Assembly: GCF_002224125.1 (NCBI RefSeq) | Contig: NZ_NCSM01000066.1 | Location: forward strand, 1-64,000 | Reading direction: 5' to 3' | Source: Streptomyces sp. NBS 14/10 | GTDB lineage: Bacteria; Actinomycetota; Actinomycetes; Streptomycetales; Streptomycetaceae | Length of the DNA stretch: 64,000 nt | Part shown: piece after piece, positions 42,980 to 50,399 of the stretch | Position numbering within the stretch: position 1 is the first letter of the stretch | Layout of the letters: every line of letters begins with the position of its first letter | The notes under the pieces: generated by a model | Databases searched by the model: none | Seen by the model: only the letters and a program-made list of their open reading frames with translations | Told to the model about the DNA's origin: nothing | Position numbers and translations under genes: made by a program

Positions 42980-44053
42980 TCAGCCGATCTCGGCGCCGTA
43001 CGCCTTAAGCGCCTCAGGCACCGGCTGGAAGAAGGTTTCGCCGCCCGAGGAGCAGTCGCCGCTGCCGCCCGAGGTCAGCCCCAGCGCGGTGTCGTCCGCG
43101 AAGAGCGAACCGCCGCTGTCGCCGGGCTCGGCGCACACGGTGGTCTGGATCAGCCCCTCGACCGTGCCCTCCTGGTAGTTGACGGTCGCGTTGAGGCCGG
43201 TGACCTCGCCGTCGTGCACCTTGGTCGTGCTGCCGCTGCGCTGCACCTTCTGGCCGACCGTCGCATCGCCGGCCTTGGTGATGGACTGCGTGCCGCCGTA
43301 GAGGTTCACCTCGCTCGGGTGCGCGGTGTCGCCGGAGTACTTGACCAGCCCGTAGTCGTTGCCGGGGAAGCTGCTGCCCGCGTTCTTGCCGATCTCCGGG
43401 CCGCCCTGGGACTCGGACCAGCTGCTGATCGCCTCGGTGCAGTGACCGGCGGTCAGGAAGTACGGCTCGCCGCCCTTGACGACGTTGAAGCCCAGCGAGC
43501 AGCGCCCGCCCTGGCCCCAGATGGCGTCGCCGCCCGCGATGAAGGTACGGAACGTCCCGGCCGAACGGCGCACCTCGACCTTGTCGCCGAGCCCGTCGGC
43601 CACCTTGTTCAGCCGGTCGAGCCGGGTTCCCTCGACCGTGCTGTCGGCCGTGACGACGACCTTGTCGGTCCTCGGGTCGACCGACCACGAGGTGCCGGGG
43701 ATGGTCGCCTTGTCCTTCAGTACCGCGCGCGCCGCGCCGAGCTGCGCCAGCGAGTACTTGACCACCCTGGCCTCGGCCCCGGCCTCGCGCACCTGGTCGG
43801 CGGCTGCCTGGTCCAGGACGTTGACCACCAGCTTCTTGGCCTCGGCGTCGTAGTACGCCCCGGCCGCACCGTCCTTGAGATCGGCGATCAGGGCGGCCGC
43901 CGTCTGCCCGGCCTCGGCGGCCGAGAGGGAGGGGGGCGGCGGCGGGGTGGGGGCGGCGTTGGCGGTCTGCAGGGAGATGGCCCCTGCGGCCAGGGCCACG
44001 GCGGCGGCGCCGGTGACGGCCATACGTCGCCGGGATATGCGTCGGTGCTTCAA
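42980..44053 (-). CDS. Streptogrisin-like S1 family serine protease
   Basis: 357-residue secreted chymotrypsin-fold protease made as a preproenzyme. TTG 44053 is the start: AGGAGG lies 6 nt upstream and the product begins with KHRRISRRR, a typical Streptomyces signal n-region. Signal peptide to about NAAP (34); propeptide (about 45-165) with LGAARAVLKD and VTADSTVEGTRLDRLNKVADGLGDKVEV. Mature enzyme has His in FLTAGHCTEA, Asp in GNDYGLVKYS, Ser in [12 protein letters not shown]. Broad extracellular proteolysis. The inhibitor gene converges on it. Confidence 0.93.
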   Translation of the reverse strand: MKHRRISRRRMAVTGAAAVALAAGAISLQTANAAPTPPPPPSLSAAEAGQTAAALIADLKDGAAGAYYDAEAKKLVVNVLDQAAADQVREAGAEARVVKYSLAQLGAARAVLKDKATIPGTSWSVDPRTDKVVVTADSTVEGTRLDRLNKVADGLGDKVEVRRSAGTFRTFIAGGDAIWGQGGRCSLGFNVVKGGEPYFLTAGHCTEAISSWSESQGGPEIGKNAGSSFPGNDYGLVKYSGDTAHPSEVNLYGGTQSITKAGDATVGQKVQRSGSTTKVHDGEVTGLNATVNYQEGTVEGLIQTTVCAEPGDSGGSLFADDTALGLTSGGSGDCSSGGETFFQPVPEALKAYGAEIG

Positions 44054-44185
44054 CTCAAGCCTCCTGTGGGGGGTTGGGCCCGGCGATGAGGTACGTCGGA
44101 CCCGGAGGGCTCTTGGCACAGGCGCACCTGCCCAGCACGGGGCGCGTCCATGCCAAATTGCGCCGCCGAGTATTCCGGGGTGCGC

Positions 44186-44300
44186 GGGGCGCATACAAGG
44201 TCGCGTACACGTCGCACGGAAGATCACGAGAATGCGCCCCGCCGCGCCGGGCACAGCCGTGCGGGCGTGCGGGCGTACGGCCGTGCGGGCGTACGGCAGT
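44186..44300. other. Intergenic region with inverted and short tandem repeats
   Basis: The 44054-44326 gap has no gene. It contains GGGGCGCAT (44186-44194) with its inverse ATGCGCCCC (44232-44240), and a tandem run of GTGCGGGCGTACGGCC-type units (about 44260-44300) just after the serine hydrolase stop. Confidence 0.6.
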
Positions 44301-44326
44301 TCGGCACAGTGCTACCGCCGAGGGCC

Positions 44327-45454
44327 TTACCCCTGCAGACCGATGAGGGCGTTGTACGCCTCTTGGACAAGGGCGTTGCCGGGGCCGGGAGCGGCGTTGG
44401 CCAGGGCTACCAGGGCCGTTGCACGGCGCGGGTTGAAGCCGGCGAAGGCCGTGAATCCGCGGGTGGCGCCCGAGTGGTGGTACAGGTCGGAGCCGTCGGG
44501 GCGTCGGCGGATGTTCCACACCAGGGACAGGCCGCGGCCGTTCGGCAGCCGGACCCGGGGGCGGGTGACATCGCGCAGAGCGGTCCGCAGCGCGGCGGGG
44601 ACGGCGGTCGAGGCGAGGGCCGGGGCGACATCCGGGGCGGGGTCGAGGATGGCCTCGACGAGGGCGAGCAGATCACGCGCGCTGGTGCGGAGGGCTCCCG
44701 CGGCGGGCAGGCCGGGGATACGGAAAGCGGGCCGGGCTCGGCCGTACCAGTAGCCGGTGGCCTGCGCGCCCCCTTCGGCCGCCGAGGTGGCGCAGCCGGT
44801 GTCCCGCAGCCCGAGCGGCAGTAGCACTCGGGCGTCGAGGAGCGCGGGGTACGGAGTGCCGTCGGCCGCACCGGTCAGGGCGTGGCCCAGCAGGCCGAGG
44901 CCGAAGTTGGAGTAGCGCACACGGGTGCCGGGGGTGGCCCGCAGCCTGGTGCGGGCCAGCGCGCGCAGCACGTCGTCGGGGGTGAAGGCGGCGTAGGGGT
45001 TGGTGAAGAGGAGTGGCGCCGCCGAGCGGAGCAGTCCGGGTGGGAGGCGCGGCAGTCCGGAGGTGTGGGTGGCGAGATGGGTCAGGGTGATGGCGGTGCC
45101 GCCGGAGGGCAGGCGGGTGGCGGCGGGGAGGTGGCGGGCGAGGGGGTCGTGGTGGCCCAGGTCGCCGCGGGCCGCCTGTTCGGCCAGCAGCAGGGCGGTG
45201 AACGTCTTGGTGAGGGATCCGGCCTCGAAGCGGGTGTCCGCGTCGGCCGGCACATGGCTGTGGTGGGCGATATGGCCGCGTACCACCAGGGCGCGGCGGC
45301 CTTCGTGGTGCAGCCCGACCGCGATCGCACTGGCCCCGGGCGCCGCCGACAGCAGCATGCCGGTCGCCCGGCGCACCACGGCGGGGGCGAGCAGGTGGTC
45401 CGCGCCGTCTGCCGGGCCGGCCACGAGGGCGCCGGTGGAGGTGTGGGTGGTCAT
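44327..45454 (-). CDS. Serine hydrolase (class C beta-lactamase fold)
   Basis: 375-residue penicillin-binding-protein/beta-lactamase-like hydrolase. SxxK is in FEAGSLTKTFTALLLAEQ (about 77-94), YxN in RVRYSNFGLGLLGHAL (about 180-195), and HxG in DLYHHSGATRGFTAF (about 325-339). No signal peptide is visible, which is unusual for a peptidoglycan enzyme, so it may act in the cytoplasm on a peptide or ester. Its ATG overlaps the stop of the DUF6895-like gene (ATGA). Last gene of a five-frame operon; it could process the small peptide encoded upstream, which is inference. Confidence 0.87.
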   Translation of the reverse strand: MTTHTSTGALVAGPADGADHLLAPAVVRRATGMLLSAAPGASAIAVGLHHEGRRALVVRGHIAHHSHVPADADTRFEAGSLTKTFTALLLAEQAARGDLGHHDPLARHLPAATRLPSGGTAITLTHLATHTSGLPRLPPGLLRSAAPLLFTNPYAAFTPDDVLRALARTRLRATPGTRVRYSNFGLGLLGHALTGAADGTPYPALLDARVLLPLGLRDTGCATSAAEGGAQATGYWYGRARPAFRIPGLPAAGALRTSARDLLALVEAILDPAPDVAPALASTAVPAALRTALRDVTRPRVRLPNGRGLSLVWNIRRRPDGSDLYHHSGATRGFTAFAGFNPRRATALVALANAAPGPGNALVQEAYNALIGLQG

Positions 45455-46437
45455 GGTGTGGGGCTGTCAGGTGTGCTGGTTGCGGGGGTGCCGATGGCGG
45501 AGGTGCCGGTTGCGGGGGTGTCCAGGGCGGGTGCGTCCAGGACGCGGGCCAGGGCGACGGAGGCGGCGATGGCGGCCACGGTGGTGGTGTGCTGGTGGTC
45601 GTGGAAGCGGGTGACGGTGTCGTCGTCGACGGGCTGGTCGTCGCGGGGCATCAGACCGTCGGCGTGCTGGAGTTCCGCCAGCCGCCGCCAGTCGTCCGGC
45701 TCGGCGTACGGCGCGGGGAGGCAGCTGCCGACCAGCAGCAACTCGCCGACCAGGTCCCACTGGCAGGTCTCGGTCCAGATATCCGTCCACACCGGAAGCC
45801 AGCGGGTGAGGTAGGCGGCCATATCGCCGGGCAGTCCGCCCGGCCACCGGCCCCAGTCGGTGAGGTGGAAGACGGTGTGGGTGACGTGGTACCCGGTCAT
45901 CCAGTCGATGTACCAGGGCGCCGGGGTGCCGCCGAGCCAGGTGGCCCGGGCCGGCGTCTGCCAGTCGGGCGCCCCCGCGCCGCGGTCGTGGCCGGTGATG
46001 CGCAGGGCGTTGGCGACGGCGAGCCGGCGGTTGGGCACATGCTCGACGACATGGGCGGCGCCCAGCGCGGCGTGGTGGGGGATCAGCCGGTCCAGGCCGG
46101 GGTGGCGGTAGCCGGCCCGGGCGAAGTGGGCGTATCCCTCGATGGTGTCGGTGGCCAGGGGGTGGCGCAGCAGCCGCTCGTACAGCAGAGCGCCCTCCTT
46201 CAGCTGGGCCCAGCTGAAGTCCAGCAGTTCGCGGGCGAGGGTGGCCTCGCGGCTGCCGGCGGTGCCGTCGCGCAGGACCAGGGAGGCGGCCAGCCCGGTC
46301 TCCGCGAGTGCCTTGTAGCCGTCCGTGTTCCCGGTGATGTCCCCGCCGTCCAGCGCGCCCAGTTGGCGGTGGGTGTGCAGCCAGCCCAGGGCGCGGGAAC
46401 GGATGTCATGGGCGACCCCGGCCAGAGCCGTGCTCAT
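45451..46437 (-). CDS. DUF6895-like helical protein
   Basis: 328-residue cytoplasmic protein rich in Trp, His and paired helices (RALGWLHTHRQLGALDGGDITGNTDGYKALAETGLAASLVLRD; IDWMTGYHVTHTVFHLTDWGRWPGG; WTETCQWDLVGELLLVGSCL). The helical hairpin pattern suggests an alpha/alpha toroid, as in terpene cyclases or LanC-type enzymes. I believe it belongs to the uncharacterised family DUF6895, from memory only. Several His/Cys could bind metal. The C-terminus has a Pro/Thr tail. Coupled by ATGA overlaps to the repeat ORF upstream and the serine hydrolase downstream. Confidence 0.75.
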   Translation of the reverse strand: MSTALAGVAHDIRSRALGWLHTHRQLGALDGGDITGNTDGYKALAETGLAASLVLRDGTAGSREATLARELLDFSWAQLKEGALLYERLLRHPLATDTIEGYAHFARAGYRHPGLDRLIPHHAALGAAHVVEHVPNRRLAVANALRITGHDRGAGAPDWQTPARATWLGGTPAPWYIDWMTGYHVTHTVFHLTDWGRWPGGLPGDMAAYLTRWLPVWTDIWTETCQWDLVGELLLVGSCLPAPYAEPDDWRRLAELQHADGLMPRDDQPVDDDTVTRFHDHQHTTTVAAIAASVALARVLDAPALDTPATGTSAIGTPATSTPDSPTP

Positions 46438-46793
46438 GCCCCTCCCTCCCGCTCAGTCCTGGCGCGCTCCAACGCGCGGGCTTCCCTCGTCACTGCCCGC
46501 TCCTCCGTCGCCGCGCGGCCACTCAGTCCAGCCCGCACAGCGCACCAGGACACGCACTCCTCCCCCCGCTCAGTCCCGACGCGCTTCCACGCGCGGGCTT
46601 CCCTCGTCACTGCCCGCTCCTCCGTCGCCGCGCGGCCACTCAGTCCAGCCCGCACAGCGCGCCAGGACACGCACTCCTCCCCCCGCTCAGTCCCGACGCG
46701 CTTCCACGCGCGGGCTTCCCTCGTCACTGCTCGCTCCTCCGTCGCTGCGCGGCTCCTCAGTCCAGCCCGCACAGCGCCCCGAGACACGCTCAT
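46434..46793 (-). CDS. Repeat ORF: three 39-residue repeats
   Basis: 119-residue frame. It starts ATG 46793 overlapping the stop of the 292-aa gene, and ends TGA 46434 overlapping the start of the DUF6895-like gene, both as ATGA. It consists of three near-identical 39-residue units (consensus core AVRAGLSGRAATEERAVTRE, then ARAWKRVGTERGEECVSW). It is Arg/Glu-rich with one or two Cys and Trp per unit. Codons often end in A or T (GCT, GGA, ACT, GCA, AGG), unlike neighbours, so it may instead be a repeat spacer that happens to stay open. If translated, it could be a multi-unit precursor. Confidence 0.4.
   Translation of the reverse strand: MSVSRGAVRAGLRSRAATEERAVTREARAWKRVGTERGEECVSWRAVRAGLSGRAATEERAVTREARAWKRVGTERGEECVSWCAVRAGLSGRAATEERAVTREARALERARTEREGGA
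46450..46787. repeat. 117-bp tandem repeat, three copies
   Basis: Units start at 46450, 46567 and 46684 (period exactly 117 bp); the third ends near 46787. The middle copy differs from its neighbours at only a few positions. Each unit carries GGGGGGAGGAG on the minus strand, a ribosome-binding-like sequence, just before a GTG. Confidence 0.93.
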
Positions 46794-47668
46794 TCCGCCA
46801 CCTCCACGCCGAGCAGCCGGCGGGCGATCGCCGCGTCCAGCAGACAGCGGTCGTCGCCGCCGCGCAGCGCGATGTCCTCGGCCAGCAGGGCCACATCCAG
46901 CGGGAGCGCTACTCCGTCGGCGGCCAGCCAGGCCAGCCAGCGGGTGATACGCGCCGCGGTGGCGAAGTCCCGCCGCAGCAGCGCGCGGGTGGCGCCGCGG
47001 GACAGGGCCAGGACGCCGGAGCGCGCGGCCTGGTGCACGGGCCCGTCCAGACCGGGCAGCGCCAGCGACGCCAGCTGCCCCATCCGCAGCGACCAGGGCA
47101 CCCAGCCCTCACCGCCGCTGGCTGCGCCATCGGCCGAGCGGTGGCGGGGCGCGCTGTCGTCACCCGGCGGCGGCCCCTGCGGCACCGGTGCCGCGGCACA
47201 CCACGGGTCGGGATCGAGCCGGGCCGCCACGGCGACCAGCCCCCAGTCGATCCAGGCCCGGAGCCACGGCCGCTCCCGCCCGCCTGGTGGCGCGGCGGGC
47301 GGGCGCCGTACGGGAGGCAGCGCCGAAAGGCTGCCGCGTACGGCGGCCGACTCCTCCGGCAGCAGAGCCCGGCCGGTCAGCACATACGGGGCCAGCGCAT
47401 CGGCCCCCAGAACGCGTACGGCGCCCACCGCGACCGCCGCGCTCGATGTCGCCGTCGCGCCACCTCCATCGCCGCCTCCGTCGCCGCCTCCGTCGCCGCC
47501 TCCCTCGCCGACTACGGACGGCTCACGATGCGCCGCCTCAGAATCCGCCGCCCGGAGGTGCGCCGCCACGACAGCCGTGCCCCCGACGCCCCGCAGGGCA
47601 TCGAGGGCACAGCGCGCCAAGAGCTCGGCCGATGCGCTGACAGCAGCGCGTGACCGCTCAGTGATCAC
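46790..47668 (-). CDS. Unknown 292-residue operon protein
   Basis: I do not recognise this protein. It has helical hydrophobic stretches without clear membrane helices. N-terminal part is Ala-rich (AVSASAELLARCALDALRGVGG), followed by a Gly/Asp repeat (GGGDGGG, about 55-70), PWLRAWIDWGLVAVAARLDPDPWC (about 133-156), and a C-terminal helical block SLALPGLDGPVHQAARSGVLALSRGATRALLRRDFATAARITRWLAWLAADGV. GTG 47668 overlaps the stop of the 64-aa peptide gene (GTGA), and its stop overlaps the repeat ORF start. Function unknown; clearly part of the operon. Confidence 0.7.
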   Translation of the reverse strand: MITERSRAAVSASAELLARCALDALRGVGGTAVVAAHLRAADSEAAHREPSVVGEGGGDGGGDGGGDGGGATATSSAAVAVGAVRVLGADALAPYVLTGRALLPEESAAVRGSLSALPPVRRPPAAPPGGRERPWLRAWIDWGLVAVAARLDPDPWCAAAPVPQGPPPGDDSAPRHRSADGAASGGEGWVPWSLRMGQLASLALPGLDGPVHQAARSGVLALSRGATRALLRRDFATAARITRWLAWLAADGVALPLDVALLAEDIALRGGDDRCLLDAAIARRLLGVEVAE

Positions 47669-47859
47669 CGGCGCCGAGGCTCCTTCGGGGTCCTCGGCTC
47701 CTTCGGCTCCTTCGCCGAAAGCACCATCATGACCAGGGATGTCATGGCCGGGGTGTGCAGCGGAGCGCCGCTCACCGGCGCCTCAGGCCGTGCCATCAGC
47801 CCCTCCAGCAACTCCGCGTGCAGGGTCAGGCCGTCTTGCCGTTGTCTTTCGACCAGCAT
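47665..47859 (-). CDS. 64-residue peptide, first gene of operon
   Basis: Short peptide starting MLVERQRQDGLTLHAELLEG, then a central hydrophobic part (HTPAMTSLVMMVLSAK) and a basic repetitive end KEPKEPRTPKEPRRR. ATG 47859 has GGGAG with 5-nt spacing, better than GTG 47865. It is translationally coupled to the 292-aa gene. Size, acidic/helical N-terminus and small C-terminus resemble a RiPP precursor or a small regulatory peptide, but there is no recognised leader motif, so this is only a possibility. The 47866-48038 gap upstream is AT-richer and probably holds its promoter. Confidence 0.6.
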   Translation of the reverse strand: MLVERQRQDGLTLHAELLEGLMARPEAPVSGAPLHTPAMTSLVMMVLSAKEPKEPRTPKEPRRR

Positions 47860-47975
47860 CGTCACTCCCGGTGAAGAGCGCCAACATTACGTGGATGCCT
47901 CCCTATCAAATCCCGCGAAAGAGTCTCAAGCACAACACACCAGCCCAAAAGGGGACATTGTTAGTCATAACGGCG

Positions 47976-48023
47976 CACAGCAGAGCCGACGGTCCGCCGA
48001 TGCGGACCGCCGGCTCTGCTGTG
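47976..48023. terminator. Strong hairpin after SPFH gene
   Basis: 22-bp arms (47976-47997 and 48002-48023) with one mismatch and a 4-nt loop, directly after the minus-strand SPFH gene. It insulates the peptide operon from upstream transcription. Confidence 0.88.
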
Positions 48024-48038
48024 CCGCTGGTGCGGGGA

Positions 48039-49013
48039 TCAGCTCCGGCGGGTCACGGTGTCGGGGCTCGTCTCCGTACGCGCTTCACGGCGCGGACGGG
48101 GCTCGGCACGGGACTCGGTCGGCTCGACCAGTTCGGGCATGCCGGCGGATGCCGCGGCGGCCGGCCGATCCGCGGGCCGCTCCAGGGGCCGGTCCGACGG
48201 CCGATCCGCGGGCCGGGGCTCCGGAGCGGCCCGGGTGCCGTCGGGCTGGGGCGCCTCCTGGCCCTTCTCGAGGAAGCGCAGCAGCTCCACGGGGATGGGC
48301 AGCACCAGCGTGGAGTTCTTCTCGGCGGCCACCGCCATCACGGTCTGCAGCAGCCGCAGCTGCAGCGCGGACGGCGTGTCGGACATCTGCGCGGCGGCCT
48401 CGGCCAGCTTCTTCGATGCCTGCAGCTCCGCGTCCGCGTTGATGACGCGGGCCCGCCGCTCCCGGTCGGCCTCGGCCTGGCGGGCCATCGAGCGCTTCAT
48501 GGTCTCCGGCAGCGAGACGTCCTTGATCTCCACCCGGTCGATATGCACACCCCACCCCACGGCCGGGCTGTCGATCATCAGCTCCAGGCCCTGGTTCAGC
48601 TTCTCGCGGTTGGACAGCAGATCGTCCAGGTCGCTCTTGCCGATGATCGAGCGCAGCGAGGTCTGGGCCATCTGGGAGACCGCGAAGCGGTAGTCCTCGA
48701 CCTGGATGATCGCGTCCGTCGGGTCCACGACCTTGAAGTAGACGACCGCGTCGACCCGCACGGTCACATTGTCCCGGGTGATGCCCTCCTGGGCGGGCAC
48801 GGGCATGGTCACGATCTGCATGTTCACCTTGCGGAGCCGATCGAAGCCCGGAACGATCATCGTGAACCCGGGGGGACGGACCGCCGACCGCAGCCGGCCG
48901 AGCCGGAGGACCACGCCCCGCTCGTACTGCTTGATCACGCGCGCCGCCGCCATCGCGTAGACAGCCCCACACGAGACCACGATCGCGCCTGCTGTCACTA
49001 GCTCCTCGACCAT
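48039..49013 (-). CDS. SPFH domain protein (slipin/stomatin)
   Basis: 324-residue membrane-associated protein. One N-terminal membrane segment (about 4-24, LVTAGAIVVSCGAVYAMAAA) is followed by the SPFH domain (about 25-215): VIKQYERGVVLRLGRLRSAVRPPGFTMIVPGFDRL, VDAVVYFKVVDPTDAI, LRSIIGKSDLDDLLSNREKLNQGL, and a coiled-coil region MARQAEADRERRARVINADAELQASKKLAEAA. The tail (about 260-324) is Pro/Arg/Glu-rich with RPSDRPLERPADRPA repeats. Stomatins scaffold membrane microdomains, often with a NfeD partner; none is adjacent here. ATG 49013 chosen. Confidence 0.9.
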   Translation of the reverse strand: MVEELVTAGAIVVSCGAVYAMAAARVIKQYERGVVLRLGRLRSAVRPPGFTMIVPGFDRLRKVNMQIVTMPVPAQEGITRDNVTVRVDAVVYFKVVDPTDAIIQVEDYRFAVSQMAQTSLRSIIGKSDLDDLLSNREKLNQGLELMIDSPAVGWGVHIDRVEIKDVSLPETMKRSMARQAEADRERRARVINADAELQASKKLAEAAAQMSDTPSALQLRLLQTVMAVAAEKNSTLVLPIPVELLRFLEKGQEAPQPDGTRAAPEPRPADRPSDRPLERPADRPAAAASAGMPELVEPTESRAEPRPRREARTETSPDTVTRRS

Positions 49014-49235: not shown

Positions 49236-49314
49236 GTGGATCAGCAGATCAGCGGTCGATCAGCAGATCGGCGGCGAATCAGCGGTGGATCAGCGGTGGA
49301 TCAGCGGATCAGTA
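49236..49314. repeat. GATCAGCGG-type short tandem repeats
   Basis: About seven degenerate copies of GATCAGC(A/G)G with 9-12-bp spacing run from about 49236 into the last codon region of the downstream protease gene. The remainder of 49014-49308 has no gene. Confidence 0.75.
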
Positions 49315-50211
49315 GACGCTCACGCCGTACGCGTTCAGCGCCTCGACGACCGGCTGGAAGAAGGTCGTACCGCCGGAGGTGCAGTTACCGCTGCCGCCGG
49401 AGGTGAGGCCGAGGGCGGTGCTGCCGGCGTACAGCGGGCCGCCGCTGTCGCCGGGCTCGGCGCAGACGGTGGTCTGGATCATGCCGTAGACGACGTCACC
49501 GTTACCGTAGTTCACCGTGGCGTTCAGCGCGGTGACCCGGCCGCTGTGGATGCCGGTGGTGGAGCCGCGGCGGGTGACCGTCTGGCCGACGGTGGGGTTC
49601 GCGGCGCTGGTGATGTCCTGGCTGCCGACGGTGCCGGCGGGGGTCACCGAGCCGCTGTACCGGACCAGACCGTAGTCGTTGGTCGGGAAGCTGGAGCCGG
49701 CGGTGGGGCCAATGGTCGTGGTGTGGCCGGAGTTGCTCCACCAGGTGCCCGCGCCGTCGGTGCAGTGACCGGCGGTGACGAAGTAGTTGGCGCCACTGCT
49801 GTTGCGCACGTTGAAGCCGAGGGAGCAGCGCCAGCTACTCGCGTAGATCGCGTCTCCGCCGGAGATCAGCTTGTTTATCTTGCCCGGGGTGCGCTTGATC
49901 TCGATCGCGTCGGCGTTCGCGCCGGCGGTGCTCTTGATCTTGGAGATCTCGGCCTGCGAGACGGTGCTGTCGGCGGTGACCACAAGGGTGTTGGTCGCCT
50001 TGTCGACATACCAGGCGGTGCCCGCGACGTCGGCCTCGAGCACGGCGCCGCCGGCCGCCTTGGCCTCGGCCGCGGTGGTCTTGGGAGGCGCGTCGTTTCC
50101 GGCGTAGGCGGGGGCGGCGAGTGCCGTCCCGGCCACCAGGGCCGAGGTGGCGGCCACCAGGGCGAGGCGTCTCGCGTGCTTGCTGTGGGGGGCGTTGCGC
50201 TTGATCCTCAA
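49309..50211 (-). CDS. Streptogrisin B-like serine protease
   Basis: 300-residue preproenzyme very similar to Streptomyces griseus protease B: product begins [15 protein letters not shown] from TTG 50211 with GGAGG 5 nt upstream. Signal peptide to about AAPAYA (38), propeptide with [34 protein letters not shown] and ERTPGK-like [18 protein letters not shown]; mature enzyme with His in [10 protein letters not shown], Asp in [10 protein letters not shown], Ser in [12 protein letters not shown], and the end NAYGVSVY. Secreted chymotrypsin-like protease. Longer frames lack any start context. Its own terminator follows. Confidence 0.94.
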
Positions 50212-50399
50212 CTCTTCCTCCGGGGGAATCGGGGGTCCGCTTGGGTGGGCAGGCCCGTGAGGCGCAGTCAATGAGCACACGGACGGGAACGCCGCGGTCG
50301 TTTCCGTCGTGCTCCTGACAAGCGCTCCCGGAAGTATTCGTGGAGTCAACCAAGGTGCGCAAGAGGTCAATTAAAAAAGTCGTCGGCGCAAGTCGCATG

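Follow-up and report, generated by a model that had tools for sequence, protein, structure and literature searches.

Mycobacterial interspersed repetitive units (MIRUs) are repeats that seem to be mobile; they are inserted at start codons and coupled to the following gene at a spacing of −4 nt (PMC12548453). In M. tuberculosis they occur as 40-100-bp units at 41 places, 12 of which are polymorphic in copy number (PMC2734929). Separately, Shi et al. (ACS Catal. 2026) reported an epimerase of lasso peptides that belongs to DUF6895, a family of predicted helical proteins. Here a locus of Streptomyces sp. NBS 14/10 (12.1-Mb genome in 127 contigs) is compared with both systems. It lies in a stretch of 64,000 nt, positions 1 to 64,000 of contig NZ_NCSM01000066.1, referred to below as the window. 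Five minus-strand frames follow one another there with four 4-nt ATGA/GTGA overlaps, and the coordinates given for these overlaps by an earlier reading of the sequence, the original prediction, match the listing of open reading frames (ORFs) exactly. From sequence comparison, two things are probably superposed in these frames: a conserved four-gene cassette resembling those for ribosomally synthesized and post-translationally modified peptides (RiPPs), and a MIRU-like element within the overlap of its genes for a 292-aa protein and a DUF6895 protein. The most interesting part is the repeat, which the original prediction took for a gene.

Homologues of the 292-aa protein are present in 64/150 same-genus genomes, including that of NBS 14/10, and the operon DNA of 20 of the other 63 was compared with the window. 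In 19/20 relatives the 292-aa and DUF6895 genes are joined by a bare 4-nt ATGA/GTGA (DTGA) overlap. Because of this, the ancestral junction was very probably a direct overlap; the array of the window lies exactly within it, with ATGA at both ends. The twentieth relative (L055, genome G028) has at this junction a spacer of 158 nt, unrelated and with many CCGTTCC repeats. In the window the repeat-core pattern has three matches against 0.00 expected. The middle frame of the proposed five-frame operon is almost certainly a dispersed repeat that inserted at this point, since relatives have the bare overlap, copies are dispersed, DTGA stands at both ends, the frame ends at the downstream start and the unit forms a covarying hairpin.

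Copies of the unit are spread through the NBS 14/10 genome. A covariance model located 22 units at 18 places, and BLAST, with 40 of 68 candidates scored, located at least 20 places, two of them remnants of 61 and 37 nt. Taken over all sites, the genes that flank the element are unrelated. They encode a 4Fe-4S NuoI-like protein and NuoJ, COX1, a methyladenine glycosylase, an MR_MLE protein with a periplasmic binding protein, sugar ATP-binding cassette (ABC) permeases, a nitrite/sulfite reductase with a small Cys-rich protein, gp25 and, by reading, ABC pairs. At least 11/392 same-genus genomes carry the element, with two candidates scored in each. A strict 34-base core pattern, searched in one genome per species across 84,980 species, matched 20 stretches (19 in Streptomyces and one in Actinacidiphila, also Streptomycetaceae) and had no match outside Streptomycetaceae.

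Copies with similar flanks were placed together, which gave 28 site clusters; a full-length element is present in 23 of them. Genes were called from frame length and G+C content at third codon positions (GC3), not from annotation. The upstream frame had to span at least 100 codons with GC3 of at least 0.85 and end at the left DTGA, the element frame had to end exactly at the right DTGA (the closest one, at most 8 nt from where the element is expected to end), and the downstream frame had to span at least 50 codons with GC3 of at least 0.78. At 11/23 full-length sites, among them nuoI/nuoJ, cytochrome oxidase genes and ABC pairs, the element lies between DTGA-coupled neighbours. Nine of these satisfy all three tests in at least one member, the element frame linking both neighbours at one, two or three units; sites 20 and 23 do so in every member. 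The other two couple both genes without the element frame, namely nuoI/nuoJ, with a deletion in the unit, and L014, whose downstream start is less certain. The upstream test alone is passed at three sites, at two of them doubtfully, and the remaining nine have no coupled upstream gene. Within NBS 14/10 itself, both neighbours are coupled at 8/17 full-length sites.

Because 117 nt equals 39 codons, the element frame reaches its stop at the downstream start whatever the number of units. It runs 123 or 126 nt with one unit (129 in L187), 240 or 243 nt with two (261 in L003, where an 18-nt stretch is repeated internally) and 360 nt with three, as in the window; tandem pairs L081 and L179 are exceptions. 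Sites 20 and 23 show one-unit and two-unit states at orthologous positions in different genomes. Among the 15 sites listed, a GGGAGG-like run usually stands ahead of the downstream start.

Site cluster 22 comprises 15 loci (L078-L081, L088, L091, L174, L177, L179, L182, L183, L187, L189, L190 and L193) with the element between the nitrite/sulfite reductase gene and the gene for the small Cys-rich protein. Because it recurs in these loci, including Actinacidiphila, the element is old here, and it may be kept for a function. Two loci of Streptomyces sparsogenes (L188 and L191) have at least two units reaching two contig ends, with a TauD gene beside one and a polyprenyl synthetase gene beside the other; the array has probably left an assembly gap here. 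In L005 the element lies within a long high-GC3 open frame that reads through, and may be an in-frame insertion into a gene.

Empty sites were examined at two further junctions. Among 61 genomes searched with the joined nuoI/nuoJ flanks, a unit-sized insertion was found only in NBS 14/10. Ten matches in other genomes span the junction. Since a spanning match by construction cannot hold a large insertion, split pairs were compared as well; in 12 other genomes the extra distance was at most 54 nt (G031) and, by our reading, never unit-sized. The NuoJ start is an in-frame DTGA where the upstream frame ends in 29/29 loci read, the DTGA taken being the in-frame one closest to the expected position, in a range from 60 nt before it to 30 nt after. 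The cytochrome oxidase site gave at least four spanning matches, one of them the second copy in the NBS 14/10 genome. Among these matches, L147 shows a GTGA overlap.

The element folds into a covarying hairpin. A single consensus has a predicted free energy of −58.3 kcal/mol (z −3.17). Across 35 aligned copies 98.2% of cells pair, against at most 46.1% in slid controls. Eight pairs vary on both sides, in 42 cells versus a shuffled mean of 8.9, although many of the 35 rows are related copies and these counts are not independent events. Pair 26-82 occurs as GC, CG, UA and AU.

MIRUs reportedly insert at DTGA sites, an observation said to go back to Supply et al. in 1997. By analogy, in its mode of action, the Streptomyces repeat works like them. 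It is a short dispersed unit of variable tandem number, it lies at start codons in DTGA overlaps of co-directional genes that are bare elsewhere, and its own frame overlaps both neighbours and is coupled to the next gene with −4-nt spacing. The repeat differs from MIRUs in its host family, its 117-nt unit, its strong covarying hairpin and the confinement of its core pattern to Streptomycetaceae. No published Streptomyces counterpart was found in the open-licence literature searched. Palindromic elements of the REPIN (repetitive extragenic palindrome doublet) and MITE (miniature inverted-repeat transposable element) types pair with Y1 (IS200/IS605-like) transposases, and the repeat resembles them as a dispersed, non-autonomous hairpin. 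Y1_Tnp was present in 7/7 carriers tested out of 11 (marginally in G165, E 9.4e-4) and in 0/4 genomes without a listed element. This co-occurrence, which kinship confounds, is only a lead.

Without the repeat, the operon is a conserved Streptomyces cassette of a peptide of roughly 60 aa, the 292-aa protein, the DUF6895 protein and the hydrolase, whose starts and stops overlap for the most part. The order 292-aa homologue, DUF6895, hydrolase is kept in 20/20 relatives. An intact peptide gene of a single family precedes the 292-aa gene in 19/20, ten found by tblastn and nine by reading upstream frames. A conserved precursor-like gene thus stands beside the gene for an enzyme that would modify its product, as in RiPP operons. 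The two genes overlap by 4 nt in 11/20 loci; elsewhere the peptide stops upstream of the guessed 292-aa start. Scattering of DUF6895 away from the peptide and 292-aa genes, which would have spoken against the original prediction's linked system, is so far the exception: every 292-aa locus fetched adjoins DUF6895 and the hydrolase, but two additional DUF6895 loci (L205 and L206) lie elsewhere. Some 2 kb of flanking DNA on either side is similar only inside small groups (L053/L054, L060-L063, L065/L066 and L067/L069), and none of the 20 loci has a match to the SPFH protein upstream in the window, which makes the cassette look like an independent unit. The protease downstream in the window matches L067 and L069 at 37-41%. 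The predicted operon, headed by a peptide gene, with a helical toroid-like protein and a hydrolase of class C type, and plausibly peptide-modifying, is therefore borne out as a conserved arrangement, once reduced to four genes.

Alignment of 18 peptides gave the pattern EPEAPxSDAPxYxPEAAG, a Leu-rich block (xLLLLLLL) and then SPKEPKEP; a divergent group has DSREC or DTREC, the Leu-rich block and then SPPTPRPK. Two adjacent DUF6895 genes occur in L067, L068, L069 and L071, a divergent branch whose peptide has the conserved D(S/T)REC motif. ATG 47859 is the better start for the peptide of the window because relatives begin near the equivalent Met. A profile search found 657 relatives at E≤0.01 among 8000 scored candidates. 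Among the 120 listed, most named hosts belong to Streptomyces and some to Kitasatospora and Thermomonospora, and no functional names occur beyond automatic labels. Almost all named relatives of the 292-aa protein come from Streptomyces; S. bingchenggensis SBI_08269, for instance, is 90% identical.

The protein that the original prediction called DUF6895-like is a full member of DUF6895 (PF21836; E 2.5e-78, 263.8 bits against a cut-off of 23.8, residues 14-292). Residues E46, R56, Y183, T186, H187, D194, D228, E232 and H283 are the same in all nine members aligned, whose identity goes down to 24%; the published lasso epimerase itself is not among them. The predicted toroid matches squalene-hopene cyclase and drimenyl diphosphate synthase, and also sugar epimerases. 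The window protein shares its Pfam family with the reported lasso epimerase. Unlike lasso systems, the four genes include no lasso genes by Pfam or NCBIfam, the precursor has a Leu-rich block and SPKEPKEP, and the partners are the 292-aa protein and an S12-type hydrolase. In genome G149 (L205/L208) a DUF6895 gene (2e-70) follows ABC genes, LanC (2.1e-49) and LanB (Lant_dehydr_N 3.5e-178). Upstream of LanB a frame contains FDLDLEIG and ITSISYCTPGC, which we take to be nisin-type precursor motifs. This class I lanthipeptide cluster, whose product may be an epimerised lanthipeptide, thus has DUF6895 near a precursor-like frame, as in the window, whereas the window operon has no LanB, LanC or ABC gene. 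The earlier statement that no known RiPP enzyme is present has been overtaken by these two occurrences of the family.

The hydrolase has SLTK, YSN and HSG, presumably its catalytic motifs, and no signal peptide, both by reading. It shares the PF00144 domain and these motifs with class C beta-lactamases and S12 serine hydrolases, whose fold family includes D-specific peptidases. It scores 106.7 bits against the class C beta-lactamase NCBIfam equivalog cut-off of 415, and is filed only as PF00144-type for this reason. Its top NCBIfam match is AmpH carboxypeptidase, at 113.1 bits against a cut-off of 266.

Table 1. Features of the operon and its upstream border in the window.
Feature	Position	Strand	Basis or detail
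Five frames	47865 (or ATG 47859)-47665, 47668-46790, 46793-46434, 46437-45451, 45454-44327	minus	ORF listing
Precursor-like peptide gene, 64 aa from ATG	47665..47859	minus	ORF listing, alignment, profile search
292-aa all-helical protein, no known family	46790..47668	minus	GTG start overlaps peptide stop
Probable MIRU-like insertion, three tandem 117-nt units (46679-46795, 46562-46678, 46445-46561)	46445..46795	minus	Direct-repeat search, genome copies
119-aa repeat ORF, almost certainly read-through of inserted units	46434..46793	minus	ATGA overlap with both neighbours
Shine-Dalgarno-like GGGAGGGAGGGGC run	46438..46450	minus	End of last unit, just ahead of DUF6895 start; read from sequence
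DUF6895 protein, predicted alpha/alpha toroid, candidate peptide epimerase	45451..46437	minus	Profile match, fold match, alignment
Class-C-beta-lactamase-like (S12-type) serine hydrolase	44327..45454	minus	PF00144 E 1.6e-53; motif reading
GC-rich hairpin, possible terminator	47975..48024	not assigned	Between upstream SPFH/Band 7 gene and operon

The hairpin upstream of the operon had been described as a strong terminator. It is present, with arms of 23 nt each (47975-47997/48002-48024) that are 96% complementary in a repeat search, and a terminator scan requiring a T run did not report it; a terminator is plausible. A scan for sigma-70-like promoters found none in 43500-49000, which says little for Streptomyces. 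Two trypsin-like protease genes (42980-44254 and 49309-50370, both minus) flank the operon and the SPFH/Band 7 gene, and are ~56% identical over 245 residues.

There is a reasonable likelihood that the four genes form a RiPP-like pathway, with product and chemistry deduced from the genes. It is unlikely that the operon is instead not a RiPP system, the peptide being a small protein that is membrane-associated or has a sorting tail, with both toroid and hydrolase acting on another substrate such as a terpenoid, a sugar or a cell-wall D-peptide. Such an assignment would fit the cyclase and synthase matches of the toroid alongside sugar epimerases, the automatic PEP-CTERM label of one peptide relative, the AmpH and class C beta-lactamase resemblance of the hydrolase, and the lack of any recognised RiPP enzyme among the four genes in Pfam and NCBIfam. 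The place of the peptide gene at the head of nearly every cassette argues against it, as do the reported lasso epimerase and the lanthipeptide cluster with DUF6895.

For the repeat, a similarly improbable alternative is a structural or regulatory RNA or DNA element, REP-like or a processing site, whose frequency at DTGA would come from selection after random insertion, not from targeting. The strong covarying hairpin, the nine full-length sites without a coupled upstream gene and the old copies at site 22 are all consistent with this. However, at nine sites DTGA stands at both ends and the element frame stops precisely where the downstream gene starts, which is more than survival of random insertion would seem to need, and the empty sites are perfect overlaps. 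It is very improbable that the 119-aa repeat ORF encodes a real fifth protein of the system, such as an Arg/Glu-rich partner for the peptide or for DUF6895. The ORF is open, shares 4 nt with each neighbour and is stop-free in its frame in 34/35 aligned copies, but the unit recurs in unrelated operons, is missing from this junction in 20/20 relatives and varies as base pairing dictates, with the third codon positions varying least (0.127, 0.130 and 0.084 at positions 1, 2 and 3).

Several observations weigh against the superposition of cassette and element that we favour. By the cut-offs, 12/23 full-length sites fail two-sided coupling and only 7/15 loci of site 22 pass all three tests, so DTGA overlaps are not the sole places of copies. 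Codon positions show no protein-level selection on the element frame, and the coupling role consequently rests on geometry. The 20 loci compared come from outside the closest protein relatives, such as S. bingchenggensis and Streptomyces sp. NPDC059679. Locus L059 (genome G060) has the peptide gene cut to 8 codons (MLTQESRK) and the other three genes retained, a natural deletion of the presumed core. Neither the peptide nor the 292-aa protein has a Pfam or NCBIfam match at E≤1, which leaves the latter without a family, and the fold match of DUF6895 fails to single out an epimerase.

Under the superposition of cassette and element, the 292-aa protein would help present the peptide, DUF6895 would epimerise at least one residue of its hydrophobic C-terminal half, and the S12-type hydrolase would trim or release the product. 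The MIRU-like element would have entered the 4-nt 292-aa/DUF6895 overlap and then expanded to three units. Its frame and Shine-Dalgarno-like run would pass the ribosome on, preserving expression of DUF6895 and the hydrolase, and its hairpin may serve mobility or RNA processing. Carried furthest, this would be a Streptomyces MIRU analogue that is mobilised by Y1, targets DTGA, recouples genes with its own frame and ribosome-binding run, could thereby get into core operons such as nuoI/nuoJ without loss, and here has invaded a new RiPP class in which a Leu-rich peptide is epimerised by DUF6895 and trimmed by a D-specific S12 enzyme; taken whole, we offer this tentatively, as rather less than probable.

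If the insertion is as described, insertion into coupled start/stop sites would extend beyond mycobacteria to a second actinobacterial family. With empty and filled sites, one to three units and a covarying hairpin, mechanism and fitness cost would then be directly testable in Streptomyces. A large unnamed peptide family also gains a candidate pathway around a newly recognised family of epimerases, in a cassette that lacks the enzymes normally used to identify RiPP clusters.

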